The position numbers were made by a program, and so were the translations under genes. Below, piece by piece: positions 30,166 to 47,835 of a stretch of 64,000 nucleotides of DNA. Under the pieces are notes generated by a model that saw nothing but the letters and a program-made list of their open reading frames with translations, made no database searches and was not told the DNA's origin. Position 1 is the first letter of the stretch. Each line of letters opens with the position of its first letter. Location of the stretch: the NCBI RefSeq assembly GCF_013155545.1, contig NZ_JABJVV010000001.1:62001-126000 (forward strand). The letters run 5' to 3'. The DNA is from Caenimonas soli (GTDB lineage: Bacteria; Pseudomonadota; Gammaproteobacteria; Burkholderiales; Burkholderiaceae_C).

Positions 30166-32550
30166 CTAGCCGTGTGCGTCTTCGATCAGGCGCGCAGCCT
30201 CGGGGTCCTCGATCAGCCGTAACACGTGGTCGGGATTCACGGGTTTGGTGAAGTGAAAATCGAAGCCTGCCTTCTTCGCCGCGGCCCGGTCCCGCTCCTG
30301 TCCCCAGCCGGTGATCGCGACGAGCAGGGTGGACTCCCCGCCCGGCGAGGAGCGGATGGCACTGGCGACCTCGTTGCCGCTCATGCGGGGCATGCCGATG
30401 TCGAGCAGGGCGACCTCGGGTGCTTGCTCGTTGAACTGCTGCAGCGCCGCCTCGCCATCGAAGGCGAGCGACACATCGTGGCCCTCCAGCCGCAGCACTT
30501 CCGCCAGGCTCTCGGCGGCGTCCCGGTTGTCATCGGCCACCAGTACGCGGCGTGAGCGGCCGGCCCCGTTCACCGTGGGCTTGGCCGAAACGGCGTGGGC
30601 GGGGGCTTCGCAAAGGTCCAGCCGCAAGGTGAAGGTGCTGCCGCGGCCCACGCCCTCGCTTTGGGCGGTCAGCGTCGCACCATGCATCTGCGCCAGCCCG
30701 CGCGACAGCGCCAAGCCGATGCCAAGCCCCGTAGCGCCACCCGAATGCGGGTTGCGCACCTGGGTGAACATCTCGAATACGCGCTCGAGCGAGTCGCGCG
30801 GGATGCCGATCCCGTTGTCGCTGACCTCGATGACGGCGTCATTGCCTTCACGCCGGGCCGTGAGGCGAACGGTGCCTCGAGGGTGCGTGTATTTGGACGC
30901 GTTGGTGAGCAGGTTGGAAATCACCTGGGCAATGCGTATGGAATCCACCATGGCCCACAACGGGGCGTCCGGCCACTCGATGATCAGCTGCTGCTTGCGC
31001 GCTTCGATAACCGGCCGGGCCGCTTCCAGCGCCGAGTCGGCGGCCTGGCGCAGGTCGCTGACCATCCTTCGCAACTCGAGCTTGCCGCGGGTGATGCGCG
31101 ACACGTCCAGCAGGTCGTCCAGCAGCACCGCCATGTTGCCGACCTGGCGCTCGATCACTTCCAGGCTCCAGCGCTGCTGCTCCGGCTTCGCCTCCGGCGA
31201 TCGGGCGATCATCGCGGCCTGCCGGATCGGAGCCAATGGATTGCGCAGCTCATGCGCCAGCGTGGCCAGGAACTCGTCCTTTCGCTGGTCGGCTTCGCGC
31301 AGGGTCTGTTCGTGGAACTTTCGCTCGGTCACGTCGGTGAACCAGACCGCCAAGCCGCCTTCGCAGGGCGATGCGATGACGTGGAACCAACCCTCGGACG
31401 GATGGGTGGAACGGAATTCGAACTCGACCGTTGCGTCCTTTTCGAGCGCCATCACGTATTGGGATAGCACACCCGGCTCATCCCAGGCGCCCGGCAGGAC
31501 ATCACGAACGGCGTGGCCGACCAGTTCGGGCACCTCGTGGCCCAGCAGGTGCGCAGCCGCACTGTTCATGTAGTCCCAGCGCAGGTCGACAACGGTCCCG
31601 TCCGCATCGCGCAGCGGTTTGAACAGGCAGAACGCAACGGCGGAACTTTCCAGCGCCACCTCGACTTGCCGCGACAAGGCCAGGGCGTTCTGGCGCAGCG
31701 CTTCATGTTCGATCAGAACGGACGCCATCTGCGAGCAGAGGTCGCCCAGCTGGTCATCGCGCGGCGTGCGTTCCTTGGGCTCCGGGAAATAGATCGAAAC
31801 CACGCCGAACGCTTCACCGGCCCGGTTGAACATGGGCCTGCTGTGGATGCACCGGAAACCTTCCTGGCGGCCTAGCTCGCGAAACTCGGCGAAGTTGGGG
31901 TCCTGCTCGATGTCCTCCACCACGACCACGCGCTGCTCGAGAAAGGCGACGCCGCAGGCCCCTTGCCCGACCGGCAGGGCACTCAGCGCGATCTCGGCTT
32001 CCGGGCTGAAGCCCAGTGTTGCAGCGGCCGTGAGCGTTGCCGAATTGGTGTCGCAGAGCGAAACCAGTCCGTGCCTGGCACTCTGCAGTTCGCACAGCGA
32101 TCGCAAGATGGCAGTGAGCTGGCCCCTCAGGTCGGGCAGCAAGGCGATGCGGTTGCCGAGCTCTTGCAGGGCCTGAAGGTCCTGCACCTGCGAGTTGAGG
32201 TCCTGCTCGCGGAAACGCGACCGATGCAGCTTGTCACCCACCACCAGGAGCACGACCGCGGCCGCCACGTAGAGCGCGATCGAAACCCTGTCGCCGACGT
32301 TCGCTACGCCGAAGCCGGCGGGATCGAGCCAGAACATGGAATTGATCAGGCCGCCCACCAGAACGATCAGCGCGGGCCGCCATCCCAACCACATTGCGGC
32401 GATCCCAATCGCGGCAAGGAAAAAGGGGAAGGGCGTCCGGGTGCCCAGAAGGGGCCGTAGCGACCACTGCAGGAACACGGCAAGCAGCAGCAGCACAACG
32501 GCTATCGCAAAGGCCCGGGGCGGAGAAAGCCGTAACGGAGTCGCTTGCAT
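30166..32550 (-). CDS. Hybrid sensor histidine kinase, membrane-GAF-PAS-HK-REC
   Basis: A 794-residue protein. About four membrane segments (~12-107) form a KdpD-type (DUF4118) sensor; a GAF domain lies at ~120-285 and a PAS domain at ~300-415. The HisKA motif FLATLAHELRNPLAPIRQ has phospho-accepting H433; the HATPase has NLLTNASKYT (N box), VSDNGIGIP (G1) and GLGIGLALSRGLAQMHG (G2). The C-terminal receiver has D717 (ALLDIGMPRMSGNEV). A hybrid kinase needs a partner phosphotransfer protein or regulator; none is adjacent. It begins 28 bases after the next hybrid kinase ends, same strand. Confidence 0.95.
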   Translation of the reverse strand: MQATPLRLSPPRAFAIAVVLLLLAVFLQWSLRPLLGTRTPFPFFLAAIGIAAMWLGWRPALIVLVGGLINSMFWLDPAGFGVANVGDRVSIALYVAAAVVLLVVGDKLHRSRFREQDLNSQVQDLQALQELGNRIALLPDLRGQLTAILRSLCELQSARHGLVSLCDTNSATLTAAATLGFSPEAEIALSALPVGQGACGVAFLEQRVVVVEDIEQDPNFAEFRELGRQEGFRCIHSRPMFNRAGEAFGVVSIYFPEPKERTPRDDQLGDLCSQMASVLIEHEALRQNALALSRQVEVALESSAVAFCLFKPLRDADGTVVDLRWDYMNSAAAHLLGHEVPELVGHAVRDVLPGAWDEPGVLSQYVMALEKDATVEFEFRSTHPSEGWFHVIASPCEGGLAVWFTDVTERKFHEQTLREADQRKDEFLATLAHELRNPLAPIRQAAMIARSPEAKPEQQRWSLEVIERQVGNMAVLLDDLLDVSRITRGKLELRRMVSDLRQAADSALEAARPVIEARKQQLIIEWPDAPLWAMVDSIRIAQVISNLLTNASKYTHPRGTVRLTARREGNDAVIEVSDNGIGIPRDSLERVFEMFTQVRNPHSGGATGLGIGLALSRGLAQMHGATLTAQSEGVGRGSTFTLRLDLCEAPAHAVSAKPTVNGAGRSRRVLVADDNRDAAESLAEVLRLEGHDVSLAFDGEAALQQFNEQAPEVALLDIGMPRMSGNEVASAIRSSPGGESTLLVAITGWGQERDRAAAKKAGFDFHFTKPVNPDHVLRLIEDPEAARLIEDAHG

Positions 32551-32578
32551 GGCACTGCGCGGGCTGGCGGCCTCTTTT

Positions 32579-35416
32579 TCAGGCCGAGTGCACCGGGTCC
32601 TGTGACATACGCGGGTCGGTGATGTGGGCCAAGAGTTCATCCACCGCTTCGAGCCCGGCGGGCTTGGTCAGGTGATGGTCGAACCCGGCTTTGCGCGAGC
32701 GAGCCCGGTCGTCCTTCGCGCCCCAGCCGGTCAGGGCCACCAGCACCGCCTCGCGGGTGTGCGGCGACGCGCGCAACTCCCTGGCAACCTCGTAGCCGTC
32801 CTTGCCTGGCATGCCGATGTCCAGGAAGACGATGTCGGGATGGAATTCGTGGGCCATTCGCACCGCCTCGTCCCCGTCATTGGCCACGCGTGTGCTGTGG
32901 CCGCTCAATTCCAGCAGCGCCGCCAGGCTCTCGGCCGCATCCGCGTTGTCGTCCACCACCAGCACCCGGCGGGATGGCGCGCCTTCGGCTGCGCCTTCCG
33001 GAAGGATCGGAAGCTCGCGCTCCTTGGGCGCTTCGGCCAGTGGCAGCCGGACGGTGAAGGTACTGCCGCCGCCGTTGCCCGCACTCTCCACCGTCACCGT
33101 ACCGCCGTGCAGTTCCACCAGGCGGCGCACCAGCGCCAGACCGATGCCCAGGCCGCCCTGTGAGCGATCCCGGTTGCGCCCGACCTGCGTGAACATCTCG
33201 AACACCTCGGGCAGTGATTCGGTAGCGATGCCCACGCCGGTGTCGGACACGGCTATGGCTACCCGGCTGGCTTCCCTGCGCACCGTCAGCTCGATATGCC
33301 CGCCGTGTGGCGTGTACTTGGCGGCATTGTTCAAGAGGTTGCTCACCACCTGCGCCAGGCGGGTGGCGTCGGCAACGATCTGCAGGGTGCTTTCCGGGAC
33401 GTGCACCTCCAGCGTATGGCCTGCCGACGTAATCAGTGGCATGCTGGTCTCCACCGCGCTGCTCAGCACGTTCTTGAGAGTGACCCGCTCTTTCTTGAGC
33501 TCGACCTTGCCGCTCGAGATCCGTGCGATGTCGAGCAAGTCGTCCACCAGCCGCACCAGGTGCTTGAGCTGGCGCTCCATCATCTCGCGGGCGCGTTCCT
33601 GCGCCGGGGGGTTGTTCATCGCCCTCCGCAGCAGCTGCAAGCCATTGGTCAGAGGCGCCAGCGGGTTGCGCAGCTCGTGGGCGAGGGTCGCCAGGAATTC
33701 CGTCTTGCGCCGGTCGATCTCGGCCAGCTCGGTCGCCAGTTGCCGCAGGTTCTCCTCGGTGCGCTTTCGTTCGCTGATGTCGTTGAACAGGATCGCCACC
33801 TTGTCGCTGCCGGGCCCGCCCAGGCGAGTCGCATAGACGTCGAACCAGCGTCCCAAGGCGCTGCCGTACTCTTCGAAGCGCACCGCATCCCCGGTGGCGG
33901 CAACCCGCGAATACGTGTCGAACCAATGCTGTTCGTGGTTGGGCACGAGCTCTTTGACGCTCTTGCCTGCCGCCCCGACCAGGCCGGTGTGCTTGGCGAA
34001 AGCCGGGTTCATCTCCAGGAACCGGAAATCGACGACCCGGCCGGACTCGTCGGACATCAGCTCGATCACGCAGAAGCCCTCGTCCATGGAGTCGAACAGC
34101 GTGCGATAGCGCTCTTCGCTGGCGCGGAGTTCTTCCTCGGCGCGCTTGCGATCGGTGATGTCCGCGGCCGTGCCGAGGATGCGCCGCGGCGAGCCGTCCG
34201 CGCCGGGCCGCAGGATGCCCGTGAGTTCCATCCATCGCACCTCGCCGTCTTCACGATTGACGAAGCGGCCCTCGAACTGCAGGCGCATGCCCAGCGTGGC
34301 GGTGAACATCATGGCCTGCTCGAACGATTCGCTGTCGTCAGGATGCACGAACCCCGTGACGAACTGCTCCGCCGTGGCAGGCTCGTTGGCAGGCGTCATC
34401 CCGAACAACTGATGAACGCGTTCGTTCTCCCAGCTGATGCTGTTGTTGGTGGCGTCCCAGACCCAGATGCCCAGCCCCGCGGCATCCGTCGCCAGCCGCA
34501 CACGCTCTTCGCTGGCGCGCAGCCGCTCCTCGCTTTCGCGGATCAGGGCTGCGGCCGCTTCGGCCTCCTCACGCCGCACCTGCTCGGTGGCGGCCGCCTC
34601 GCGTGCCGACTGCGCCTCCTGGCGTGAAGTGATGTCATGCATCGACACCACGGCGCCGAGCTTGTGGCCGGTTTCGTCATAAAGGGGCTGGCCGCTGGCG
34701 ACCACACTCCGAGGCTTGCGGCCTTTGGGAGCGATGACCAGTTCGGTGTTGTGGACCTGCTCTCCCGAAAGGGCGCGAAACAGCGGTGTTTCCTCCTTGG
34801 CCAGCGGGGTCTTGCCGTCGGCGGCGTAGAGGTCGTACTCGCCGGCCCACTGCTCGGCATCCAGCGAGCGGAAGGCGAGGCCGTGAAATTCGCGTGTCGC
34901 CCGGTTGAACAGGGTCAGTTTGCCATCGGGGCCGCAGGCCACGATTCCGTCTTCGACCGCTTCGAGCACCGCGGACAGGAAGACTCGATCCTGCACTGCC
35001 TGCTGCTCGGCTGCCTGGAGTTCCTGCTTGCTGCGATGCAGTTCGACGAAGAAGGCGACCTTGGCTTTGAGCACCGCGGGCATCAGCGGCTTGCCCAGGA
35101 AGTCGACCGCGCCCATGGCATAAGCCTCTTCGATGGAAACGTCGGACGGATCGGCCGTGATGAAAATGATGGGCGTGGCGCGCGAACGCCTCTGCGCGCG
35201 GATCAGGCGCGCGGTTTCGAAGCCGTCCATGCCCGGCATGCGCACGTCCAGCAATATCGCGGCGAAATCCGCATCGCGCAGCTGCCTGAGCGCGGCTTCA
35301 CCGGAGGACACGGGCACCAGCGGCTCACCCAGCTCCTGCAGCACCGCCTCGAGAGCCAACAAATTGGCAGGCTCGTCATCGACAAGCAGAATCGGGGCCG
35401 GGGGGCGGGTATTCAC
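32579..35416 (-). CDS. Hybrid histidine kinase, REC-PAS-PAS-PAS-HK-REC
   Basis: A 945-residue soluble kinase. An N-terminal receiver (6-125) carries D57 (FAAILLDVRMPGMDGFETAR), unusual before PAS domains. Three PAS/PAC domains occupy about 140-260, 300-420 and 430-550. HisKA has FLATLAHELRNPLAPL with H580 and the HATPase has LLNNAAKYTPHGGHIEL and GLGIGLALVRRLVELHGG. The C-terminal receiver has D866 (IVFLDIGMPGKDGYEVAR). There is no membrane segment; signal is likely cytoplasmic. Possibly cotranscribed with the kinase at 30166. Confidence 0.95.
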   Translation of the reverse strand: MNTRPPAPILLVDDEPANLLALEAVLQELGEPLVPVSSGEAALRQLRDADFAAILLDVRMPGMDGFETARLIRAQRRSRATPIIFITADPSDVSIEEAYAMGAVDFLGKPLMPAVLKAKVAFFVELHRSKQELQAAEQQAVQDRVFLSAVLEAVEDGIVACGPDGKLTLFNRATREFHGLAFRSLDAEQWAGEYDLYAADGKTPLAKEETPLFRALSGEQVHNTELVIAPKGRKPRSVVASGQPLYDETGHKLGAVVSMHDITSRQEAQSAREAAATEQVRREEAEAAAALIRESEERLRASEERVRLATDAAGLGIWVWDATNNSISWENERVHQLFGMTPANEPATAEQFVTGFVHPDDSESFEQAMMFTATLGMRLQFEGRFVNREDGEVRWMELTGILRPGADGSPRRILGTAADITDRKRAEEELRASEERYRTLFDSMDEGFCVIELMSDESGRVVDFRFLEMNPAFAKHTGLVGAAGKSVKELVPNHEQHWFDTYSRVAATGDAVRFEEYGSALGRWFDVYATRLGGPGSDKVAILFNDISERKRTEENLRQLATELAEIDRRKTEFLATLAHELRNPLAPLTNGLQLLRRAMNNPPAQERAREMMERQLKHLVRLVDDLLDIARISSGKVELKKERVTLKNVLSSAVETSMPLITSAGHTLEVHVPESTLQIVADATRLAQVVSNLLNNAAKYTPHGGHIELTVRREASRVAIAVSDTGVGIATESLPEVFEMFTQVGRNRDRSQGGLGIGLALVRRLVELHGGTVTVESAGNGGGSTFTVRLPLAEAPKERELPILPEGAAEGAPSRRVLVVDDNADAAESLAALLELSGHSTRVANDGDEAVRMAHEFHPDIVFLDIGMPGKDGYEVARELRASPHTREAVLVALTGWGAKDDRARSRKAGFDHHLTKPAGLEAVDELLAHITDPRMSQDPVHSA

Positions 35417-35527
35417 TCACCAAAGCTACTCCAAAAACGTCGAACTCAACGTCGGAAAAACACGCAACATGAGCCCCCTCGAAGAAGGCGGCGCCAACAT
35501 AATGGGAAATGAAGAAGCCCCGCACGC

Positions 35528-37810
35528 ATGAGAATGGATGAGTTGATCGCGAGGCGAGTCCTCCTGGCCCAAGCCATAGAAACCGCGGACACGCAAGGAG
35601 GGCTGCTCAGCGAGGTCGAGCGCGACCAGATCGATCGCCAGGCGCGGCACGATGCCGGCGTAGCCGGCGAGGAGCGCCAAGCCGTCGCGCCCGAGCACTT
35701 CGTCGACGTGCGCGCCCAGCGCGTCCTCGCAACGGTGCAACGGCGCAACCCGACGTTGGCCGCCATGCAGGAACCAGGATCGCTCAGGGGATGGCTGACG
35801 GTCGGCATACCGATGGCCGCGCTCGTGCTGGGCGTACTCACGGACGTCATCGCCAACCCGCACCGGGTCGATCTTGTATCGCTGCCGCTTCTGGGAATCG
35901 TCGCCTGGAACCTCGCGATGTACCTCGTTCTCATCGGTGGCTGGATGCTGGCGCGCCGTGGACGGCAGCGGCCGCTACTGGCGGGACTGGGTCGTTGGAC
36001 CGACGGCCCGCGCGCTCTCAAGCGGCGTCCTGGCAACCTGCAATCGCAAGTCACGGCGCTGTTCCACCTGCGTTGGTATCAGGCAACTGAGGCCCTGCAT
36101 ATACAGCGGTGCAAGCGGGTGCTGCATCTGGCCGCGGCGGCCTGGGCGGTGGGCGTGGCCCTCTCGCTGCTGACGCGGGGCCTGGTGGTGGAGTATCGGG
36201 TGGGATGGGAGAGCACCTTTCTCAACGCCGGACAGGTGCACGCCATCCTCAGTTTCTTGCGGCTTCCCGCTCTCCTCGTTTTTCCGTTCCAGCCATTCAC
36301 GGTGCAGGAAGTGGCGAGCCTGCAGTTCACGCAGGGTGGGGGCGTGGCAGGCGCGCGATGGGTGTACATGTATGTTGCCCTGCTATTGGTGCTGGTGGTA
36401 GTGCCTAGAGTGGTGCTCGCAGCCGCCGCGTACGCGCGCGAACGGATGCTTGCGCGCAAAGTGCGGGTCGATCTGGGCGACCCGTATTTCCAGCGGCTGG
36501 TCTCGCTGCTGAGTTCCGCTCGTGTCCACCTCGGCCTCATCACGCATCGCGAAGAGGATCGCAGCGCCTTGCTTCGGGTGCTGTCGCAGGAACCCGATAC
36601 CGGGCGCACACTGATCAGGTCGGGCCACGATGATGTCCTGCGCCTGATTGACCTTTCGGGCGCGCCGGCGCCGGCTCCATCTTCCCCAGCATCGTCCGCC
36701 GAGGCCGGCTGGATGGGGCGGCTGCTCGGCCTGGTGTCGCGAGGCAAGGCAAGCGTGAATCCAGTGGGCGAAACGCTTGGCGCCGCACGTGAAGACTGCG
36801 ACGTCGTGCTTCACGTATCCGGCGCAGCGGGCGACCCCGCTGCCGCGCAGCCCCTGCTGCAATGGCTGGGCAAGCCGGTGCTGGCGCTCTGGAATCGGCC
36901 TGGGCCGCCCGATCCGGGGCAGCTCCCTTTCGATGCCTTCGCCCGGTGCTGGGTCCAGGAAAGAACGCTGCTGGACGCCATAGGGCGGTTGCTGCCGCAG
37001 GCCAAGGCAGCGGGGTTCGCGAGGATCGTGACCGCCTGGGAGGCGCGCAACCAGGCGCGCTTCGCCCGCGCCATGGCCGTACTGGCGGAGCATTTGCTGT
37101 ATGCCGCGCGCCAGGTGGAAGAGGTACGCAGCAACGCGCTCACGGTAAAGAGCTTGATCCCCACCGAGCGGCAGGCCCAGTCGCAAGCCCGGCAGGCGGC
37201 GATGGACGCCGTCGTCAAGCGGCTGGATGCCTCGGCGTCCGAGATGTTTTCCCGACTGCGCAAATTGCATGGCCTGGACGACAGTACGGCGGAGATCCTG
37301 CACGAGCGCATGCGGGAGAAATTCGTCGTGCAACAGGCGATCGACACGCCGCAAGCGGGAATGGCGGGCGCCGCCACCGGTGCCGCCATGGGTGCGTCGG
37401 TGGACCTGCTGGTGGGTGGCCTGACCCTGGGAGCCGCAACCGCGCTGGGTGCGCTGGTGGGCGGCAGCGCTGCTTTCATCGCAGCAGCATGGAAGAACCG
37501 CGCGACCCCGGGCGGCGCAACGGTGATTCAGCTCAGCGACGAGATGATGCAAGCGATGGTGGAGGCGGCGTTGCTGCGCTACCTGGCGGTGGCGCATTAC
37601 GGCCGCGGACCCGCCGGCGCCGAAGGCGAATTGCAGCAATTCTGGAAAAGCGATGTTGTGGCCGCAGTGGAGGCCCGCGAGACTTTCCTGCCGCCCTTCT
37701 GGACGGCCGCGCGGACGCAACCCGATTCGGGAAGACTGGCGATGGCCCTGGCTCACGAGCTGGAAACAATTGCCCGCAAGGTGCTGGGGTCGTTATACAC
37801 GGCGGCGTGA
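35528..37810 (+). CDS. Membrane protein, apparent DUF2868-DUF3482 fusion
   Basis: A 760-residue protein. The N-terminal ~340 residues match the DUF2868 type: paired long hydrophobic segments (WLTVGIPMAALVLGVLTDVI, LLGIVAWNLAMYLVLIGGWML and ALLLVLVVVPRVVLAAAAYA), with intervening VQRRNPTLAAM and DLGDPYFQRLVSLLSSARVHLGL. The last ~290 residues fit the DUF3482 type, with GAATGAAMGASVDLLVGGLTL, GALVGGSAAFIAAAW and LLRYLAVAHYGRGPAG. In relatives these domains are usually adjacent separate genes and DUF3482 carries a GTPase P-loop; no P-loop (GxxxxGKS/T) is seen here. Fusion is my interpretation; function is unknown. Confidence 0.7.
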   Translation: MRMDELIARRVLLAQAIETADTQGGLLSEVERDQIDRQARHDAGVAGEERQAVAPEHFVDVRAQRVLATVQRRNPTLAAMQEPGSLRGWLTVGIPMAALVLGVLTDVIANPHRVDLVSLPLLGIVAWNLAMYLVLIGGWMLARRGRQRPLLAGLGRWTDGPRALKRRPGNLQSQVTALFHLRWYQATEALHIQRCKRVLHLAAAAWAVGVALSLLTRGLVVEYRVGWESTFLNAGQVHAILSFLRLPALLVFPFQPFTVQEVASLQFTQGGGVAGARWVYMYVALLLVLVVVPRVVLAAAAYARERMLARKVRVDLGDPYFQRLVSLLSSARVHLGLITHREEDRSALLRVLSQEPDTGRTLIRSGHDDVLRLIDLSGAPAPAPSSPASSAEAGWMGRLLGLVSRGKASVNPVGETLGAAREDCDVVLHVSGAAGDPAAAQPLLQWLGKPVLALWNRPGPPDPGQLPFDAFARCWVQERTLLDAIGRLLPQAKAAGFARIVTAWEARNQARFARAMAVLAEHLLYAARQVEEVRSNALTVKSLIPTERQAQSQARQAAMDAVVKRLDASASEMFSRLRKLHGLDDSTAEILHERMREKFVVQQAIDTPQAGMAGAATGAAMGASVDLLVGGLTLGAATALGALVGGSAAFIAAAWKNRATPGGATVIQLSDEMMQAMVEAALLRYLAVAHYGRGPAGAEGELQQFWKSDVVAAVEARETFLPPFWTAARTQPDSGRLAMALAHELETIARKVLGSLYTAA

Positions 37811-37877
37811 CGGGGTTTTTGGCTGATCCCTCGGCGGACGGCGAGATCAGCGCTTTTGGACAACGGTGCGAGATTGC

Positions 37878-37885
37878 GTCCTACA
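37878..37885 (+). promoter_or_regulatory. GTCCTACA motif before the KGG gene
   Basis: Exact octamer, 60 bases before the ATG at 37945 and after the stop of the DUF2868/DUF3482 gene. Confidence 0.4.
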
Positions 37886-37944
37886 TGAAAGCCGCTGAGC
37901 TTGTACAAATATTGCCACTTCGTTACACCCACCGGAGAACAGCA

Positions 37945-38139
37945 ATGCAAGACAGCAATCCCACTGAGCAGCGCCGCCTGCGCGGCTTCGCAGCCATGTC
38001 GCCGGAAAAGAAGAAGGAAATCGCAGGAATGGGTGGCCGTGCCGCGCACGCCGCCGGACGTGCCCACCAGTTCAGCACCGAAGAGGCTCGCGCTGCAGGC
38101 AAAAAGCGCCACCAGCGCCCTGATACGGCCAGCCAGTAA
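37945..38139 (+). CDS. KGG-domain (YciG/GsiB-like) general stress protein
   Basis: A 64-residue hydrophilic protein with the KGG repeat signature: RGFAAMSPEKKKEIAGMGGR then AHAAGRAHQFSTEEARAAGK. KGG/YciG-type proteins are induced in stationary phase, salt or desiccation stress in other bacteria. GGAG precedes the ATG. With phasin, Ku and BON genes nearby this supports a stress locus. Confidence 0.9.
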   Translation: MQDSNPTEQRRLRGFAAMSPEKKKEIAGMGGRAAHAAGRAHQFSTEEARAAGKKRHQRPDTASQ

Positions 38140-38265
38140 TCTCGCACCGCAGCAACATTTGTTGCGGCACTTTTTACAAGCGGTCGCGTAGGAAAAGCGC
38201 CTGTTTCAGCGTCAGATCGGATAACCGCAGCTTTTAGACCTACAACGGCTCAGGCACGCGTATTG

Positions 38266-38294
38266 CAACTCCCCGTAAGCAACTTAGGGGGTTG
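38266..38294 (+). promoter_or_regulatory. Inverted repeat over the ribosome site of the gene at 38297
   Basis: CAACTCCCC (38266-38274) can pair with GGGGGTTG (38287-38294), with one mismatch/bulge; within it CCCCgTAAG-CAA-CTTAGGGG forms a tighter repeat. The GGGGG arm overlaps the Shine-Dalgarno (AGGGGG) of the ATG at 38297. It could be an mRNA hairpin that masks the ribosome site, or a DNA operator related to the repeat at 15820-15851. Confidence 0.5.
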
Positions 38295-38296
38295 TA

Positions 38297-38584
38297 ATGG
38301 ACACAGGACTGACCCAGCTGGAAGATTACGCAACGGCCCTCGCCCGCGAAAGGGCGGCGTGGGAAGCGGTGCGAGGCAAACTGCCCGGTTCGTTGGCCTT
38401 CGACCAGGAGCGCTGGCAGTGCTGGCGCAGGGCGGTGGACGAGGCGGACAAGGCCGCAGCGAAGGCCAGGACGACCATTGCAGTCGTCACCAAGCCCACT
38501 CAGCGGCCACCGCTCTTCGGAAGGGGATGGCCCCAGGCCGTACGACTGCCTCCTATCCTCGGAGGCAGCAAGCGCGCGGGCTAG
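38297..38584 (+). CDS. 95-residue protein of unknown function
   Basis: AGGGGG precedes the ATG. The first 60 residues form amphipathic helices (TQLEDYATALARERAAWEAV, then AFDQERWQCWRRAVDEADK), after which the sequence becomes basic and proline-rich (PTQRPPLFGRGWPQAVRLPP). No family recognised. It stands between KGG and phasin genes and its start is probably within an mRNA hairpin. Coding is supported by the ribosome site and by helix-like periodicity, but the C-terminus could be spurious. Confidence 0.5.
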   Translation: MDTGLTQLEDYATALARERAAWEAVRGKLPGSLAFDQERWQCWRRAVDEADKAAAKARTTIAVVTKPTQRPPLFGRGWPQAVRLPPILGGSKRAG

Positions 38585-38601
38585 CACCGCGCCCTCAACC
38601 T

Positions 38602-38609
38602 GTCCTACA
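38602..38609 (+). promoter_or_regulatory. GTCCTACA motif before the phasin gene
   Basis: Exact octamer, 107 bases before the ATG at 38716, just after the stop of the preceding small gene. Confidence 0.4.
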
Positions 38610-38715
38610 GCCGGTGCGGTTGCAGAAAGTAAGCCCCTCGACGGTTGCATTGCTGACCAGGATTTCCGGAGCCGCGCTGATAAGGTGCCCGCTCCAAACC
38701 AGAGAGGATATGCAC

Positions 38716-39171
38716 ATGAGCTCAAGGAATTCCCGCTCCACTTCAGGCGACGACTCGCAAGCCGCAGCCTGGACCCCCCTCAACATGCTTACCGACCTCC
38801 CGCGCAAGCAGCTCGAGCTCGTGACTCGCTCGGCCACAGCCGTGTACCGCGGCTCGGAGACCTTGCGAAAAATCCAGCTGCAGGCGGCACATCGGGCTTC
38901 AGTCCACCATGAGGAAGCCGCCGAAAAACTGCGCGGCCCGTGCGACTTGGGCGAAATAATGGCCATACAGGCCGACCTGCTGCGCTTCAACGTACAGGAG
39001 GCCGTGCACTACTGGCAGCAGCTGGCCAGCGCGGCATTGAAGACCCAGGTCGATCTGGTCGGCAGCGCCGGGCGGGCGCTGGACACGGGCGCCGAGCCTT
39101 CTTTGGAAGCGCTGCAGCAAGCATTTGCGGCATCGCTGGATGGCTCCGCGGAGAGCGCGGCCCGCCACTGA
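38716..39171 (+). CDS. Phasin-family protein
   Basis: A 151-residue protein (ATG at 38716, AGAGAGGA upstream; ATG at 38710 also possible). It has phasin features: LTDLPRKQLELVTRSATAVYRGSETLRK (parts) as an amphipathic first helix, then HEEAAEKLRGPCDLGEIMAIQADLLRF and VHYWQQLASAALKTQVDLVGSAGR. Phasins coat polyhydroxyalkanoate granules and are also stress chaperones. The LxAxQxxLL motif of the core is well kept. No PHA synthase gene is in the window. Confidence 0.88.
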   Translation: MSSRNSRSTSGDDSQAAAWTPLNMLTDLPRKQLELVTRSATAVYRGSETLRKIQLQAAHRASVHHEEAAEKLRGPCDLGEIMAIQADLLRFNVQEAVHYWQQLASAALKTQVDLVGSAGRALDTGAEPSLEALQQAFAASLDGSAESAARH

Positions 39172-39229
39172 GTTTTGATTGCGCCCACACGACTCAGCGG
39201 CATAGTATGGTCCTCCCAGGCAGCTTGGC

Positions 39230-39481
39230 ATGACTCCAGAGGAACAGCTTCTAAGCGAATGGCGAATCGCTGCGAAGGCCGCATTCGCTGCGGAGAGGGC
39301 TGTTTCGGACGCATTCGTTTGCTACTTCAGCAACAAGGGATCGCCACCGACGCAGGAGCAGCTCAAGGAAGCCGCGCGCCGCCGGGAAATCGCCAACGAT
39401 CTTTTCCATGTCGTGATGGGCGAGGTGACCCGCGGGCCCCGAAAGTCCGCGGATCGTGGATCCGGACCGATTGCTAGATGA
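39230..39481 (+). CDS. Hypothetical 83-residue protein
   Basis: A short protein with a helical centre (EEQLLSEWRIAAKAAFAAER and QEQLKEAARRREIANDLFHVV) and a basic tail. It starts without a strong ribosome site and its last 8 bases overlap the 3' end of the histidine kinase on the other strand. I do not recognise it. Coding is plausible on amino-acid composition (acidic/basic helix heptads) but not certain. Confidence 0.5.
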   Translation: MTPEEQLLSEWRIAAKAAFAAERAVSDAFVCYFSNKGSPPTQEQLKEAARRREIANDLFHVVMGEVTRGPRKSADRGSGPIAR

Positions 39482-41747
39482 GGGTGAGGGCGGTTCGCCC
39501 GGCTACATTGGCCACCGTCGCCAGCAATTCAGGCGGCTCCACGGGCTTTGTCAGGTGCGCGGCGAAACCGGCACGTAGGGCCTGGGTGCGATCTTCCGGG
39601 CGGGCGAAGGCGGTAAGCGCCACCGCGGGCAGCCCGCCGCCCCGCGCCTCGCCGAGGTTGCGGATGGTTCGCAGCAGCGAGAATCCGTCCACGTCCGGCA
39701 TGCCGATGTCGCTCACCAGCACGTCGGGCCTGTGCGACTCGATCAGCGATAGTGCCTCTGCCGCATTGCCGGCAGTCAGCACCTTTGCCTCGCATTCGCC
39801 CAGCACGCGCCGCGCCAGTTCGCGGCCGTCGTCGTCGTCGTCCACCACCAGGATGGTCAAGCCCGAGAGGTCGATCGCGTCATAGGCCGCCGTGAGGCGG
39901 ATCGAGTCATGCTCCTCGGGCCGGCGCTCGGCGTGGTCCTGGGCGAAGGGCGCGGGCAGCGACAGGCTGAAGCTGGTGCCCAGCCCTTCGCCCGGGCTGC
40001 TGACGCCGACGCTGCCTCCGTGCAGTTCGACCAGGCTCTTGACGATGGACAGGCCCAGCCCCAGGCCGCCATAGCGGCGTGTGGTGGAAGCATCGGCCTG
40101 CCGGAACCGTTCGAACACATGATCGACGAAGTCCGGCTTGATGCCGATGCCGCTGTCGGTCACCGTGATCTTGACCTTCGCTTCCTCTTGCGCCAGCGTC
40201 ACCCGCACGGTCCCACCCGTGGGCGTGAACTTGATGGCGTTGGACAGCAGGTTGCCCATCACCTGCTGCAGGCGGCCGGGGTCGCCCGGGATCGCGGCCA
40301 CCGAAGGCTCCAGCATGCGCTCGAGGCGCACGCCCTTGGCTTCGGCGGCGGGCCGCACGGTTTCCAGGGCGGCCTCGATGAACATGATGGGCTCCACCGG
40401 TTGCACGTCCAGCCGGACCTTGCCGGAGGCGATGCGGTTCATGTCGAGCAGGTCGTCGATCAGCTGCACCTGCAGCCGGGCATTGCGCTCTATCGTGTCC
40501 AGGCCTTTTTGCAGATCCTGCGGCGCGCCAAGCCCGCGGCGCAGGATGTGGACCCAGCCCATGATCGCGCTCAAGGGCGTGCGCAGTTCGTGCGAGAGCG
40601 TGGCCAGGAAATTGTCCTTCAGGGCGCTCATGCGCTCGGCAAGGTTGCGCGCCGAGCGTTCGCTCTCGAGCAGGATTTTGCGCTCCTCGGCCGACTGCTG
40701 CGCCGCCTCATACAGGCGGGCGTTGTCGATGGCGACCGCGGCCTGCGCCGCCACGCCCACGACGATTCTTTCGCTGCGATCCGTGAACACGCCTGGTTCG
40801 GGGTGGCCGAAGAACAGGCCACCAATCACTTCGCCGGAACGCGAAACGACCGGCACCGCCAAATAGCTGCGCACCCGCAAGTGGCCAGCCGGCATGCCGT
40901 GATGCGGCGCCCATTGGCCGTAGCGCGGGTCCTTCTGGATGTCGTCGCTGCGGATCGGTGGGCCGCCGCGGAAGGTGGGGCCGAACACCTCGGTCGCGCG
41001 CGGCTGGCCGAACTGTTCGAAGACTTCGGGTGGCGCGCCGGACAAGGTGTACAGCAGCAATGATTCGCCTTTGCTGTCGACCACGTTGTAGAAGAACGCG
41101 CCGAATTTCGCCCCGCTGATTTGCGTCCCGGCGTCGGTCACGGCCTGGACCAGCGAACGCAGGTCGAGCTTGGAGGCCAGGTTGCGGCCGGTGCGGTTGA
41201 GCAGCTCGAGCACCCGGGTTTCATCGCGCAGGGCTTCCTCTGCCTTGCGCTGCAAAGTGATATCGCGGTAGCTCCAGACTCGCCCGACGATGCGGCCATC
41301 GACGACCTGCGGCCGCGACTGGCGCTCGAGCACGCGGCCGTCGGTTGGAGTGAGGACATCGAAGCTCGTGGGCGGGGCGGCGCGGTAGATGGCGTGGACG
41401 AGAGCCTTGAATTCCTCAGGCCGCTCAAACCAGGCGGCCATCGCTTCCAGCAGATGGCGATGGTCCCGGTCTTCCATGGTGCTGCGCGGCAGCTGCCACA
41501 TCTGCACGAACTTCTCGTTGTAGCCGGTGACCCGATAGTGCTCGTCGGTGACCAGGATGCCGTCGGTGGCGGAATCCAGCGTGGCCTTCATCATGGCCAG
41601 CGAAAGCGCCAATTCCTCGGTCTTGCGCTCCAGTGCGTCGCGAGCTTGAAGCAGTTCGTTCTCGGCCCGCTGGCGCGCCTTCAGGATGCTGGAAGCATTG
41701 CGTAGCGCGACTGCCTTCAGCAGCTCGTCTTCATCGGCGGTGGCCAT
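39474..41747 (-). CDS. Hybrid histidine kinase, PAS-GAF-HK-REC
   Basis: A 757-residue cytoplasmic kinase. A coiled-coil lead-in (~15-45) precedes a PAS domain (55-175, LDSATDGILVTDEHYRVTGYNEKF, parts) and a GAF domain (~195-345, LAVPVVSRSGEVIGGLFFGHP). HisKA has NFLATLSHELRTPLSAI with H386. The HATPase shows NLLSNAIKFTPTGG and GLGLGLSIVKSLVELHGGSV. The C-terminal receiver has D680 (VLVSDIGMPDVDGFSLL). It begins one base after the methionine-synthase-like gene stop, so the two are likely cotranscribed. Confidence 0.95.
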   Translation of the reverse strand: MATADEDELLKAVALRNASSILKARQRAENELLQARDALERKTEELALSLAMMKATLDSATDGILVTDEHYRVTGYNEKFVQMWQLPRSTMEDRDHRHLLEAMAAWFERPEEFKALVHAIYRAAPPTSFDVLTPTDGRVLERQSRPQVVDGRIVGRVWSYRDITLQRKAEEALRDETRVLELLNRTGRNLASKLDLRSLVQAVTDAGTQISGAKFGAFFYNVVDSKGESLLLYTLSGAPPEVFEQFGQPRATEVFGPTFRGGPPIRSDDIQKDPRYGQWAPHHGMPAGHLRVRSYLAVPVVSRSGEVIGGLFFGHPEPGVFTDRSERIVVGVAAQAAVAIDNARLYEAAQQSAEERKILLESERSARNLAERMSALKDNFLATLSHELRTPLSAIMGWVHILRRGLGAPQDLQKGLDTIERNARLQVQLIDDLLDMNRIASGKVRLDVQPVEPIMFIEAALETVRPAAEAKGVRLERMLEPSVAAIPGDPGRLQQVMGNLLSNAIKFTPTGGTVRVTLAQEEAKVKITVTDSGIGIKPDFVDHVFERFRQADASTTRRYGGLGLGLSIVKSLVELHGGSVGVSSPGEGLGTSFSLSLPAPFAQDHAERRPEEHDSIRLTAAYDAIDLSGLTILVVDDDDDGRELARRVLGECEAKVLTAGNAAEALSLIESHRPDVLVSDIGMPDVDGFSLLRTIRNLGEARGGGLPAVALTAFARPEDRTQALRAGFAAHLTKPVEPPELLATVANVAGRTALTLI

Positions 41748-41748
41748 A

Positions 41749-42810
41749 CTAGACCCCAAGTACCGCCGAGGCGAGTGCAGTGCCAACCACCCGTGCCCGG
41801 ATCTTGGCGAATGCCGTTTCGCGGCTGGTGGAAGTGTCGTCGCAAAACGGCGAGAAACCGCAGTCGTCGGTCGTGCCCAGTTGCGCAGGCGGAATGAACT
41901 CCGCCGCCTCCAGGATGCGGTCGCGGACTTCCTCTGCTCTTTCCACGCGCGGGTCGATCGGCGCCACCACGCCCACGAAGATGCGCTGGTCGGGTTTCAT
42001 GTACTTCCGGATGATCTTGAGGACCTTGATGCGATCGCGCTCGCCGGCCAAGGCCACGTAGAAGTTGCCGGCTTTCAGCTCGAACAGGCTGGGCAGCAAT
42101 TCTTCGTAGTCCACGTCGGCGCTGTGCGTGGAATCGCGGTCGCCGCCGGGGCAGGTGTGGATGCCGATGCGCTTTCGATCGGCCTCAGAGAAGCGGGACA
42201 GGGCGAGGTTGTTCAGGTCGATGAAGCTGCCAAGCAACATACCGGTCGGATCGATCTTCATGGCCAGGCGGCCTTCGGTGAAGTCGATCTGCACCTTGTG
42301 CGCACCTTTTTGCAGGCAGCGCCTTACTTCGGTTTCGTGCTCGCGCAGCAGGTCGTCGATGAATTCCTCACGCGAATAATCGGGCATGCCGTCCGCGGGA
42401 TACATCAGGCTCAGTGCCGAGGGCGAAATGACAGCCTGCTTGACCGGAAGGCTGGTGTACTTCATGGCGACGTCCATGAAGCTGTCGGCGTAGCGCTTGT
42501 AGCGAAAGGGTCCTTGCGTCAGGCGCGGCATGCGGCGCGTATGGCCGGCGGCGAACGGAATGGCAAAGCCGTCGGGGGCCGTATTGCGCAGGCCGTGAAC
42601 GCAATAGGTCCAGAAGTTGTGATACTTGCGCTGCTCTCCGTCGGTGACCACGGGCGAGCCTGTGGCTTCGAAGTGCGCGACGGTGTCGCGCACGGCTTCT
42701 TCATAAAGGGCGGAGAGGTCGGGATGGTCGTCGTTGCCGACGCGCTGGATGGCGGACAGGAGGCCAAGCGGCCGCGGAATGCTGCCGATCGGCTCGGTGG
42801 GAAGGGTCAT
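41749..42810 (-). CDS. Cobalamin-independent methionine synthase II-type protein
   Basis: A 353-residue MetE-barrel protein, about half the size of MetE; this group is annotated as methionine synthase II or UROD/MetE-like. Zinc ligands are recognisable: the H-x-C of GIHTCPGG and Cys in TTDDCGFSPF; the Glu is probably in the barrel region near VQIDFTEGRLAMK. Stand-alone MetE C-terminal-type proteins act in methyl transfer with diverse acceptors, so methionine synthesis is not certain. Cotranscription with the kinase at 39474 is likely. A GTCCTACA motif is 34 bases before the start. Confidence 0.9.
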   Translation of the reverse strand: MTLPTEPIGSIPRPLGLLSAIQRVGNDDHPDLSALYEEAVRDTVAHFEATGSPVVTDGEQRKYHNFWTYCVHGLRNTAPDGFAIPFAAGHTRRMPRLTQGPFRYKRYADSFMDVAMKYTSLPVKQAVISPSALSLMYPADGMPDYSREEFIDDLLREHETEVRRCLQKGAHKVQIDFTEGRLAMKIDPTGMLLGSFIDLNNLALSRFSEADRKRIGIHTCPGGDRDSTHSADVDYEELLPSLFELKAGNFYVALAGERDRIKVLKIIRKYMKPDQRIFVGVVAPIDPRVERAEEVRDRILEAAEFIPPAQLGTTDDCGFSPFCDDTSTSRETAFAKIRARVVGTALASAVLGV

Positions 42811-42843
42811 CGGGCGATGGTAGTCGCCAAGGTGGGGCGATTT

Positions 42844-42851
42844 TGTAGGAC
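42844..42851 (-). promoter_or_regulatory. GTCCTACA motif before the methionine-synthase-like gene
   Basis: Exact octamer on the minus strand, 34 bases before the start at 42810; its first base is the last base of the upstream BON gene. Confidence 0.4.
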
Positions 42852-43192
42852 TAAACCTGCAAATTGCTGGGCTGGCCGCCGACGTCGAAGGCCGAAATGG
42901 AATTGCGCACCATCCGCACGCCAGGCATATCGGTCAGCTGCATCAACAGAACGCTGCGCTCGTCAGCCGGTACGCGCCCGGAAACCCGCACCACGCCGGA
43001 TTCCACTTCGATGTCGATCGCTTCCGGCTGGCTGACCAACTCGGGTAGCCGCGCCTTGATCTGCTCACGCAATTGGGCGTCGGTAGGGCGATCGGCGGCC
43101 CCCGCGCGATTGCGCGAGATCGCGGCGTCCACGCAATACATTGCCGCCGCACCAGCGGCAAAAGCCGCCGCCACATTCCATAGAGACCTCAT
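42851..43192 (-). CDS. BON-domain protein, membrane-anchored
   Basis: A 113-residue protein starting MRSLWNVAAAFAAGAAAMYC, a signal or anchor helix. The BON domain follows, with DAQLREQIKARLPELVSQPEAIDIEVESGVVRVSGRVPADERS (parts: QLREQIKARLPELV, VESGVVRVSGRV). BON (OsmY/BON) proteins bind phospholipid or stabilise the envelope and are osmotic/stationary stress induced. The gene lies 11 bases after the Ku gene, same strand, and may be cotranscribed. Confidence 0.9.
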   Translation of the reverse strand: MRSLWNVAAAFAAGAAAMYCVDAAISRNRAGAADRPTDAQLREQIKARLPELVSQPEAIDIEVESGVVRVSGRVPADERSVLLMQLTDMPGVRMVRNSISAFDVGGQPSNLQV

Positions 43193-43203
43193 TGATACTC
43201 CTT

Positions 43204-44175
43204 CTAGGCTGCCTTCTTGCGCGGCTTGGGCTTGACGCTGGCCGTGGCGCGGGCACTGCTCTTGGTCGCAGCGGCCTTGCGCGCGCGAGCCGGCGCATCT
43301 TCGTCGTTGGCGGCCTTGCGGCGCGATGTGGTCTTGGGCGCTTCTTCGGCAGCTTCCTCGGCCGCCTTGCCCCCGCCCTTGCGCAGGCTGCGTTTGAGGA
43401 GTTCGGTCAGGTCGATGATGTCGGCGCTGGTCTTGACCTCCTCGCCTTCCAGCGGCTTCATGATGTGCTCGCCCTCGCCGGCCTTCACCTTTTGCTCCAC
43501 CACCTGCTCCAGCTTCTCGCGGAACTCGTCGTGGAAGGCCTCGGGCTTCCACTTGTCTTCCAGCTCGTTGACCAGCTGCTCGGCCATCTTCAGTTCTTTC
43601 TCGGTCACCTTGGTGTCCGAGTCGGGCAGTGGCAGGCCGGCGGTGTCGCGGACTTCGTCCTCCCACCGCAACAACTCCAGCACCAGCCCCTCTTCGGAGG
43701 GCATCAGCGCCGCCAGGTGCTGGCGGGTGGAGATGACGACGCGGGCGATGCCGACCTTGCCGGTGCGGCGCATGGTTTCCTGCAGCAGCTTGTAGGGTTT
43801 CTGGCCCTTGCTCGCCGGAGCCACGTAATAGGGCTTGTTGTAGTAGGCCGTCGGGATCTGGCCGCCGTCGATGAAGGCCTCGATCTCGATGGTCTGGGTC
43901 GACTTGGGCAACGCCGCCTTGATCTCCTCGGGCGTGAGCACGACGTACTGGTCTTTCTCGTACTCGAAGCCCTTGACGACTTCTTCCTTGGTCATGGCCT
44001 CGCCGGTGGCCTTGTTCACCTGCTTGTTGCCCACCGGGTTCATGGTGCGCTTGTCGAGCAGATTGAACTTCATCCTGTTCTCGGCAGTCGCCGAATGCAG
44101 GGTGATGGGAATATGGACCAGGCCGAAGCTGATCGCGCCTTTCCAAAGCGTACGGGTGCTGGAGGGTGCTGGCAT
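43204..44175 (-). CDS. ku: Ku protein, bacterial non-homologous end joining
   Basis: A 323-residue Ku homodimer subunit that binds DNA double-strand ends. The start RTLWKGAISFGLVHIPITLHSAT is diagnostic, as are LPKSTQTIEIEAFIDGGQIP and GKVGIARVVISTRQHLAAL. The core fold covers about 1-255; a Lys/Arg/Ala-rich tail (~265-323, RKAANDEDAPARARKAAATK) is usual and binds DNA. No LigD or polymerase/nuclease gene is in the window, so its ligase must be elsewhere. A GTCCTACA motif lies 33 bases upstream of the start. Confidence 0.96.
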   Translation of the reverse strand: MPAPSSTRTLWKGAISFGLVHIPITLHSATAENRMKFNLLDKRTMNPVGNKQVNKATGEAMTKEEVVKGFEYEKDQYVVLTPEEIKAALPKSTQTIEIEAFIDGGQIPTAYYNKPYYVAPASKGQKPYKLLQETMRRTGKVGIARVVISTRQHLAALMPSEEGLVLELLRWEDEVRDTAGLPLPDSDTKVTEKELKMAEQLVNELEDKWKPEAFHDEFREKLEQVVEQKVKAGEGEHIMKPLEGEEVKTSADIIDLTELLKRSLRKGGGKAAEEAAEEAPKTTSRRKAANDEDAPARARKAAATKSSARATASVKPKPRKKAA

Positions 44176-44207
44176 CTTCTCACCCTAGCCGCTTGGGCCG
44201 CGGGCGC

Positions 44208-44215
44208 TGTAGGAC
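44208..44215 (-). promoter_or_regulatory. GTCCTACA motif before the Ku gene
   Basis: Exact octamer on the minus strand, 33 bases before the Ku start codon at 44175. Confidence 0.45.
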
Positions 44216-44241
44216 ATCGCAGAAAGGATGTGTGCGACGGA

Positions 44242-44886
44242 TTAGTCGATCAGCTTGTTCTTGAGCGCGTAGTAAGTCAGGTCGCTGTTGGACGTGAGGC
44301 CCATTTTTTCCATCAGGCGGGTGCGGTAGGTGCTGACGGTCTTGACGCTCAGCGACAGGGCGCTCGCGATGTCACCGGCGGTTTCGCCCTTGGCCAGCTT
44401 GAGGAAAACCTGGAACTCGCGCTCGGACAGCAGGTCGTGCGCGGCGCTGCCTTCCTTGCGATTGAGCTGTTGGGCAATGAGCTCCGCCACCGAAGGGGAG
44501 ATATAGCGCCGGCCCAGCGCGATCGTGCGGATGGCGTTGACGATCTCCATCGGCTCGCATTCCTTGTTGAGGTAGCCGCTGGCGCCCTGCCGGATCAGGT
44601 TCACGGCGTACTGCTCTTCAGGATAGCCCGACAGGATGAGGATGCCGACGTCGGGCGCCTTGGCGCGGATCATGGCCAGCGCGTCGATGCCGCTCTGCCC
44701 GGGCATGGACAGGTCCATGATGATCACGTCCATTTCGGTGGTTCGCACCAGGTCGATGGCTTCGCGCCCGCTGGACGCCTCGCCAACGACCCGAAGGTCC
44801 ACCATTTCGGATAGGAATTGTTTGAGCCCCGCGCGGACGATGGCGTGGTCGTCGACGATGGCTACTTTGACGATGGAATCATTCAT
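44242..44886 (-). CDS. NarL/FixJ-family response regulator
   Basis: A 214-residue regulator: receiver domain with D58 (VIIMDLSMPGQSGIDAL), the Ser/Lys positions (LSGYPEE, GYLNKECEPMEIV) and a C-terminal LuxR helix-turn-helix at about 147-205 (LSEREFQVFLKLAKGETAGDIASALSLSVKTVSTYRTRL, parts). It is the only DNA-binding response regulator in the window and lies beside several hybrid kinases without outputs, so it is a candidate partner for them. It may bind the GTCCTACA motif described below. A copy lies about 97 bases upstream of its own start. Confidence 0.95.
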   Translation of the reverse strand: MNDSIVKVAIVDDHAIVRAGLKQFLSEMVDLRVVGEASSGREAIDLVRTTEMDVIIMDLSMPGQSGIDALAMIRAKAPDVGILILSGYPEEQYAVNLIRQGASGYLNKECEPMEIVNAIRTIALGRRYISPSVAELIAQQLNRKEGSAAHDLLSEREFQVFLKLAKGETAGDIASALSLSVKTVSTYRTRLMEKMGLTSNSDLTYYALKNKLID

Positions 44887-44982
44887 GTTTGGTATGTAAC
44901 AGTGCCTCAGCAGCCCGAAGTGTGCGCCGCAAACGGCCGCTGCGGGTTACGGCGGCAGGGTTCGACGCTAACTTCCGGCTTT

Positions 44983-44990
44983 GTCCTACA
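44983..44990 (+). promoter_or_regulatory. GTCCTACA motif between the CoA-transferase and NarL-type regulator genes
   Basis: Exact octamer, here in the plus orientation, 97 bases upstream of the regulator gene, which runs on the minus strand. The opposite orientation to most copies suggests a protein-binding site that works either way. Confidence 0.35.
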
Positions 44991-47362: not shown

Positions 47363-47833
47363 GTGAGCATCCCCCGCCTCATCCAGCCCTTCTGGAACGA
47401 GTTTCATGCCACCGTTGGAGGTGACGTTCTGGCCCGTTTCTATGAGGCCTTCCACTTCGACGATAACGAACCAAGTGCAAATGCGCTGGCACAGCTCGTT
47501 CTTGCCGGAACAAAGCGCGCCACTGCCGGGTTGGTGTGGTCCTTCGAAGCGGACAACAAGCGACCTCCGAAGCGCGGTGACCTTAGCGTCGTGACCAACT
47601 GGCAAGGTGAGCCGCTCTGTGTCATCGAAACCAAGGCTGTGGCGACCGTTCCCTTCGAGGAGGTCGGTGAGGAGTTTGCCGCGGCCGAGGGCGAAGGCGA
47701 TGGCTCGTTGCGCTATTGGCGCGAAGCCCACTGGGCGTATTTTGGAAGAGAATGCAAGCGCATCGGAAGAGTGCCTGACCTGAGAATGCCAGTCTTTTGC
47801 GAGCAGTTCGAGGTCGTCTACCGTGGAGCCTGA
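47363..47833 (+). CDS. ASCH-domain protein
   Basis: A GTG-start protein of 156 residues. The ASCH pattern is clear: LVLAGTKRATAGLVWSFEAD, then KRGDLSVVTNWQGEPLCVIETKAV, and ARFYEAFHFDDNEPSANALA before it. ASCH domains are PUA-like and bind RNA or modified nucleosides; members include EcASCH, a cytidine/N4-acetylcytidine hydrolase. The conserved Lys-x-x-Thr of that group matches GTKRAT. Role here not known. Confidence 0.9.
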   Translation: MSIPRLIQPFWNEFHATVGGDVLARFYEAFHFDDNEPSANALAQLVLAGTKRATAGLVWSFEADNKRPPKRGDLSVVTNWQGEPLCVIETKAVATVPFEEVGEEFAAAEGEGDGSLRYWREAHWAYFGRECKRIGRVPDLRMPVFCEQFEVVYRGA

Positions 47834-47835
47834 TC

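Follow-up and report, generated by a model that had tools for sequence, protein, structure and literature searches.

A TGTAGGA element common to ku, ligD and a duplicated NarL-type response regulator in Caenimonas soli and its relatives: a putative two-component regulon for end joining

Which regulator governs the genes around ku, the gene for the non-homologous end-joining (NHEJ) protein Ku, in Caenimonas soli? To our knowledge, control over the choice of error-prone end joining is described in few bacterial groups. The question is raised by a block at positions 30166–44886 of a 64,000-nucleotide stretch (contig NZ_JABJVV010000001.1, positions 62,001 to 126,000; hereafter the window), which encodes three hybrid histidine kinases (HK1, HK2 and HK3), a NarL-type response regulator (RR), Ku, and KGG-motif, phasin and BON-domain proteins. 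The original prediction saw in this set a branched phosphorelay, running from the three kinases to the RR and controlling survival genes. Sequence comparison points to a different arrangement: the block probably forms the Ku portion of a regulon under a family of UvrY/GacA-like RRs which would bind the element TGTAGGA, with a duplicated, self-regulated RR beside ku.

Ku, LigD and the TGTAGGA element

The genes and sites which carry the argument are read directly from the DNA; genes were called with a custom caller, by which small genes are missed.

43204–44175, minus strand: Ku (NHEJ; TIGR02772, 306.5 bits, cut-off 150)
44208–44216, plus strand: TGTAGGACA site 32 bp 5' of Ku, with TCCTACA towards Ku and 19 bp before a –10-like CTAGGGT
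44242–44886, minus strand: RR, a NarL/FixJ-type response regulator (REC and GerE domains), UvrY/GacA-like
44982–44990, minus strand: TGTAGGACA site 95 bp 5' of the RR
37879–37885, minus strand: TGTAGGA site (TCCTACA on the plus strand), about 60 bp 5' of the KGG gene
37945–38139, plus strand: KGG-motif protein of 64 amino acids (PF10685, 27.4 bits, cut-off 20.4)
38601–38609, minus strand: TGTAGGACA site 5' of the phasin gene
38785–39171, plus strand: Phasin_2 protein (domain scan; alternative start 38714)

Ku and LigD both score above their curated cut-offs (LigD: TIGR02776, 693.6 bits, cut-off 373.2). Each was detected as a single copy in the 5.6 Mb genome (G000; handles beginning with G, C and L are ours for genomes, contigs and loci), ku on contig C1, which holds the window, and ligD behind a DUF2383 gene on contig C45, unlinked to ku.

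The element occurs 11 times in the window as TGTAGGA or TCCTACA, and all 11 copies are intergenic in a stretch of which 12.8% is intergenic (P=1.5e-10, a post hoc value, as the element was first noticed in promoters of the window). In 138 kb of DNA from the same genome it showed the strongest intergenic bias among the 5,293 7-mers present six or more times (16 intergenic, 1 genic); these 138 kb include stretches fetched for the core RR (see below), KGG and LigD, a selection of which the window test is free. The longer form TGTAGGACA is found exactly five times in the window, before an FtsH-like gene (9119), a CHRD gene (25009) and the phasin, Ku and RR genes, and 23 times with at most one mismatch, against 4.2 in shuffled sequence (maximum 9). 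Genome-wide there are 39 exact copies of the 9-mer, 33 of them outside called genes, and 27 of these 33 lie no more than 600 bp from the called start of a suitably oriented gene. Products encoded beside exact sites, among the 20 genes scanned, include Hsp20, a trypsin-PDZ protease, an M23 peptidase, an OmpA-type protein and MinC. Motif counts per genome did not separate genomes with the RR copy from those without it.

For six sites without an obvious gene, a role of tandem copies in driving small RNAs was considered; Rfam gave two tRNAs and one sub-threshold hit, and five of the six have a small open reading frame (ORF) nearby which is plausible by eye, any open frame being listed (the exception is L178). 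At L195 (near 2552) and L174 (near 2536), two copies of TGTAGGAC with a spacing of 21 bp are followed by small unannotated ORFs, and the predicted products of these look similar by eye. In the window an 83-residue ORF at 39230–39481, without a Pfam match, looks by eye like a small ORF which adjoins a TGTAGGACA site in L180.

Conservation of the element at target promoters

Against a background of 0.043 copies of TGTAGGA per 320 bp, the element was found within 320 bp upstream of 24 of 44 Ku genes. It is close to invariant where Ku is at least 60% identical (22 of 23, the miss being L131), always as TCCTACA at –36 to –65. All nine loci with an RR of the Ku-linked type carry it upstream (8/8, plus G012), and in the upstream regions that were read the whole of TGTAGGACA stands unchanged about 100 bp before each of eight distinct Ku-linked RR copies. 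KGG genes have it in 20 of 27 cases. Of four phasin genes one has a site and the three others have none upstream, so that the site may be confined to this genome. Control promoters from the same loci were almost devoid of it: YgiQ 0/12, BON 0/15, DUF3482 0/3, CsbD 0/3 and CoA-transferase 1/12.

Upstream of the ligD operon a site lies within approximately 1.4 kb in 21 of 30 loci, and 14 of these have an inverted TGTAGGA...TCCTACA pair, 49–73 bp apart; from the ligD start onward there are four sites in 58 kb. Six of the nine misses concern genes which run to the edge of the DNA, with the operon promoter out of sight, and three are true misses. The most uniform set is that of the core DUF1328 operon promoters, all 44 of which (the loci with an identifiable DUF1328 start and sufficient DNA before it) contain GTAGGA, the core of the element, in several genera and with some of the sequences near-identical. 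The next hexamer, of ribosome-site type, reaches 32 promoters, and dinucleotide shuffles gave a mean of 1.5 and a maximum of 6. That the motif might occur only where a Ku-linked RR is present was ruled out, since 11 of 12 Ku promoters of the 60–70% identity group possess it.

The response regulator and its core paralog

The RR belongs to the NarL/FixJ family (PF00072, 100.7 bits; PF00196, 59 bits; both above cut-off), and its closest named matches are in Ramlibacter and Caenimonas, of the Comamonadaceae. It shares 89% identity with another RR, encoded on contig C51 (the core RR), which is part of a set showing 83–91% identity in many Comamonadaceae; the RR beside ku is a duplicate of this core regulator. 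RRs of this kind were found in 37 of 40 genomes of the genus (E 1e-100), the Ku-linked type in six of them. The Ku-linked type (at least 94% identity) forms one clade (SH-aLRT 99), and in one genome, G012, it is present and no Ku was found.

Among 81 loci with such RRs six are Ku-linked, none of these with a divergent CHASE3-type kinase. At the 75 core-type loci this kinase is divergent from the RR in 68, not so in six, and one had too little DNA to tell. The three core-locus kinases scanned were all CHASE3-HisKA_3-HATPase proteins, giving a pair of HisKA_3 kinase and NarL-type RR, and the three core loci read gene by gene had the kinase followed by DUF1328 and small envelope-type genes. From the 89% identity between the two RRs and the pairing at core loci, the CHASE3 kinase on C51 appears to be the better candidate for a partner of the RR.

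The helix SVKTVSTYRTRLMEKM, which we take from knowledge of the family to be the recognition helix, is identical in the Ku-linked and core RRs of this genome. The best NCBIfam model of both is UvrY/SirA/GacA (NF007018; 187.2 bits for the RR of the window and 186.5 for the core RR), below the cut-off of 280, which makes this a resemblance and not a family membership.

A more distant RR paralog (79% identity to the core RR) adjoins an RpoS-like sigma factor, below the family cut-off, at L282 9843–11460 (G035:C46), and a TGTAGGA site precedes this locus. The idea that the system replaces RpoS was discarded, as an RpoS-type sigma factor above the family cut-off is present in 27 of the 40 genomes, including that of the window. 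Two other NarL-type regulators (36–39% identity) are divergent from Ku in G026 and G023 (L283 1264–2554; similarly in L125 and L128).

A putative regulon for end joining

The core regulator of the Comamonadaceae, mostly divergent from a CHASE3-HisKA_3 sensor and near an operon for small envelope proteins (DUF1328, DUF883, BON), would be phosphorylated when the sensor fires and would then bind TGTAGGA half-sites. Once bound, it would switch on the small-envelope operon, ku, the ligD operon and, among other genes, those for KGG proteins. Some Ramlibacter and Caenimonas have a duplicate of the regulator, and this duplicate, which usually lies directly upstream of ku behind a TGTAGGA site of its own, would be autoregulated. 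Since the duplicate matches the core RR exactly in the presumed recognition helix and closely in the receiver, it probably shares both the kinase and the binding sites of the core RR; the outcome would be a self-reinforcing input to end-joining repair. At ku the element mostly stands, by eye, 19–20 bp before the –10-like CTANNGT, where an activator could touch the polymerase. We infer the binding of the site by the RR, activation through this binding, the feeding kinase and the signal. The first of these is likely, because the motif is found at the promoter of the core operon as well as at that of the duplicated RR, and because of the resemblance to UvrY/GacA. A bolder version, in which a core stress regulator would control ku and ligD via TGTAGGA and the copy beside ku would be an autoregulated switch tying repair to drying or stationary phase, seems to us evenly poised between right and wrong.

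Several observations weigh against this proposal. The link between RR and motif draws on two things, the motif at both RR loci and the family resemblance; the upstream DNA of the core RR in this genome reads GGGTAGGTC and contains no exact TGTAGGA, and contig C51, which holds the core locus, contains no exact 9-mer. Of the 177 7-mers with the same composition as TGTAGGA seven are commoner in the window, and the 11-mer CTGTAGGACAA is not commoner per genome than its reversed control, so that the signal is one of position and not of number. Where Ku is less than 60% identical, only two of 21 genes have a site directly upstream. Three loci with a Ku of the same group (G035, G003 and G020) lack an adjoining RR, and in G014 Ku has the site (L119) and no RR was detected at E 1e-100, in an assembly which is 90% complete. 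Outside the genus two Comamonas plasmid Ku genes (approximately 53% identity) carry only CCTACAG, and one Variovorax and one Cupriavidus Ku have no site within 250 bp upstream; at 44–54% identity all of these Ku genes are poor comparators. Finally, the 20 scanned targets are mixed, four being without a match and others metabolic enzymes, so that the predicted regulon, if real, extends beyond stress genes.

The hybrid kinases and alternative explanations

The kinases from which the original prediction drew its phosphorelay are encoded as follows.

30166–32640, minus strand: HK1, hybrid histidine kinase DUF4118-GAF-PAS-HisKA-HATPase-REC (start uncertain, GTG at 32496 an alternative)
32579–35416, minus strand: HK2, hybrid kinase REC-PAS-HisKA-HATPase-REC (domain scan)
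39474–41786, minus strand: HK3, hybrid kinase PAS-GAF-HisKA-HATPase-REC, its gene overlapping the MetE-like gene
41749–42810, minus strand: MetE-like (Meth_synt_2) protein (domain scan)
42844–42850, plus strand: TGTAGGA site about 34 bp 5' of the MetE-like/HK3 pair

HK1 to HK3 might pass phosphate through their own receivers and an Hpt protein encoded elsewhere to the RR at 44242. All three are hybrids, a TGTAGGA site precedes the MetE-like/HK3 pair, and GacS/BarA-type hybrid kinases feeding GacA-type RRs are a known design. HK2-like kinases, moreover, lie near genes of the island (the conserved neighbourhood described below) in 12 of the 14 other genomes which have one (E 1e-150; the two others, G001 and G002, were not examined), and the four scanned all have two receivers. 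They stand 4.7–12.5 kb from Ku in eight genomes with Ku of the 60–70% type, where the match spans only the kinase core and the last receiver, near KGG in G062 and G063, and beside the CoA-transferase gene in G019; at L275 of G010 HK2 itself is placed between DUF3482 and YgiQ as in the window, with HK1 absent. Against such a relay, no Hpt domain was matched at E 0.001 in the ten block proteins scanned, HK1 to HK3 included (a genome-wide Hpt search was not made); the sister stretches compared contain no close match to HK1 or HK3; and the paralog of the RR adjoins a HisKA_3 kinase of CHASE3 type. Relatives of HK3 (E 1e-150) are confined to eight of the 40 genomes, its own included, and in G019 it is again paired with the MetE-like gene, among other genes (L280). 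Kinases near an RR are in any case weak evidence, since the genus is rich in them: an excerpt of PMC3164672 gives 82 kinases and 49 regulators for R. tataouinensis. The phosphorelay was thus not upheld and is improbable as an explanation; the three hybrid kinases are probably not partners of the RR/TGTAGGA switch, a link from HK2, a recurrent resident of the island, to the RR being possible. The cis element shared by RR, Ku, KGG and phasin is consistent with a single regulator of survival genes, as the original prediction had it; the three-kinase relay as its input is not supported.

The element itself might be explained without the RR. TGTAGGA/TCCTACA could be part of a promoter for an alternative sigma factor, the RR beside Ku being incidental, and in most of the printed Ku promoters TCCTACA is indeed seen by eye at a near-constant 19–20 bp before the –10-like CTANNGT. 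We consider this unlikely, because such a –10 at 17–22 bp accompanies four of the 39 exact genomic sites (above background) and is lacking at 35, because the sites are found in either orientation and their distances vary, the one at the RR facing away from the gene, and because those before ligD form inverted pairs. The site might otherwise be bound by an unlinked third regulator, for instance another NarL-type RR or a one-component factor, which would govern the stress genes together with the RR loci. A search with the RR gave 80 matches in the genome, many of which cover the receiver only, and genomes that lack the Ku-linked copy do have the site at Ku. Most of these genomes, however, do have the core RR, by the same 37-of-40 count, and the element marks the core operon promoter at every one of the 44 loci examined, which leaves a third regulator quite doubtful.

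Other observations touch the kinases. The notion that all three are insertions was rejected on the synteny of HK2 in G010 and the recurrence of HK2-like kinases. HK3 could itself be a target, given the site at 42844–42850; none was displayed before the pair in L280 of G019. Two loci with Ku of the 60–70% type (L278 6375–11583 and L283 8759–13973) have genes for a heme oxygenase and a bacteriophytochrome kinase in the interval from Ku to the HK2-like kinase; in both, TCCTACA stands 5' of the heme oxygenase gene, a possible light input to the same regulon.

Conservation of the neighbourhood

The other block genes are a DUF2868/DUF3482 protein and a BON-domain protein.

35528–37810, plus strand: DUF2868/DUF3482 protein, a conserved neighbour of KGG (domain scan and loci of relatives)
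42851–43141, minus strand: BON-domain protein 3' of Ku (domain scan; in the same place after Ku in several relatives)

The gene list of the original prediction was borne out, every gene being at or near its predicted place; it lacked the DUF2868/DUF3482 protein and the MetE-like protein (41749–42810). Among the block genes scanned the RR is, as had been claimed, the sole carrier of a DNA-binding regulator domain. Small genes missed by the caller, including those for ASCH-domain and cytidine-deaminase-like proteins, lie further on, at 47363–48806.

The order CoA-transferase, RR, Ku, BON, KGG, DUF3482, YgiQ is complete in R. aquaticus (L034/L117) and G007 (L114) and partial in Caenimonas SL110 (L032) and other relatives. 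CsbD genes belong to the island in L032, L036 and L117, and phasin genes in L036, L114 and L118. Conservation of the block in relatives, which the original prediction had proposed as its check, is therefore confined to part of the genus for the RR-Ku-BON-KGG portion, and does not extend to HK1 and HK3.

Genes which adjoin Ku in many genomes with the 60–70% type of Ku occur in the window at 12827, 13692 and 14236, here without Ku and about 30 kb from ku; ku may have moved within the region. Many Ramlibacter genomes possess a further Ku (approximately 50% identity) beside a further KGG gene (L137, L139, L145). This second KGG gene is kept in the genome of the window (G000:C51:107496, L162) and in G007 (L284), with no Ku shown there.

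Comparison with known systems

The nearest known relatives, by the best NCBIfam match of both RRs, are BarA-UvrY and GacS-GacA. The half-site TGTAAG of the UvrY site TGTAAGN6CTTACA, as given in an excerpt of PMC4682653, is close to TGTAGGA. The present element differs in being TGTAGGA/TCCTACA, with no second half-site 6 bp away evident by eye in the printed Ku promoters. The RR differs too, scoring 187 bits against a cut-off of 280, and the neighbouring kinase is a CHASE3-HisKA_3 protein, not a BarA-type hybrid. The predicted targets here are protein genes; Rfam returned no Rsm/Csr-type RNA (CsrB/RsmY) at five loci around sites without an obvious gene, and such RNAs may be missing from Rfam.

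In the Rcs phosphorelay (RcsC-RcsD-RcsB) RcsB is also a NarL/FixJ RR, and the RcsAB consensus TAAGAATATTCCTA, from an excerpt of PMC12388358, shares TCCTA with the element. The RcsB model gave 79 bits against a cut-off of 235, and no RcsD-like Hpt partner was seen in the block.

Bacterial NHEJ by Ku and LigD here involves unlinked genes with a conserved upstream element in common. In Sinorhizobium RpoE2 reportedly places NHEJ genes in the general stress regulon. The EcfG-type regulon of Sphingopyxis, also of the Alphaproteobacteria, includes ku-ligD (excerpt of PMC7083833). The likeness lies in NHEJ genes under general stress control; the difference is that a sigma factor acts there, whereas a NarL-type RR with a transcription factor-like site is proposed here, in a betaproteobacterium. 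No report of two-component control of Ku or LigD, or of this element, was found in the open-access literature, which leaves most subscription papers outside, and among the matches listed by an open-access text search for TGTAGGAC all were on other subjects by title. Within the literature searched, a response-regulator route to NHEJ genes appears to be new, sigma-factor control of ku-ligD being already known.

Implications

Unlinked ku and ligD genes carry the conserved element of an operon beside a widespread two-component system, and control of the two genes is therefore directly testable in Ramlibacter, of which R. tataouinensis is culturable and forms desiccation-resistant cysts (excerpt of PMC6848086). 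If the proposed regulon is real, it would suggest a role for a regulator conserved at 83–91% identity in many Comamonadaceae, and it would give a betaproteobacterial lineage in which NHEJ is placed under a dedicated two-component regulon.

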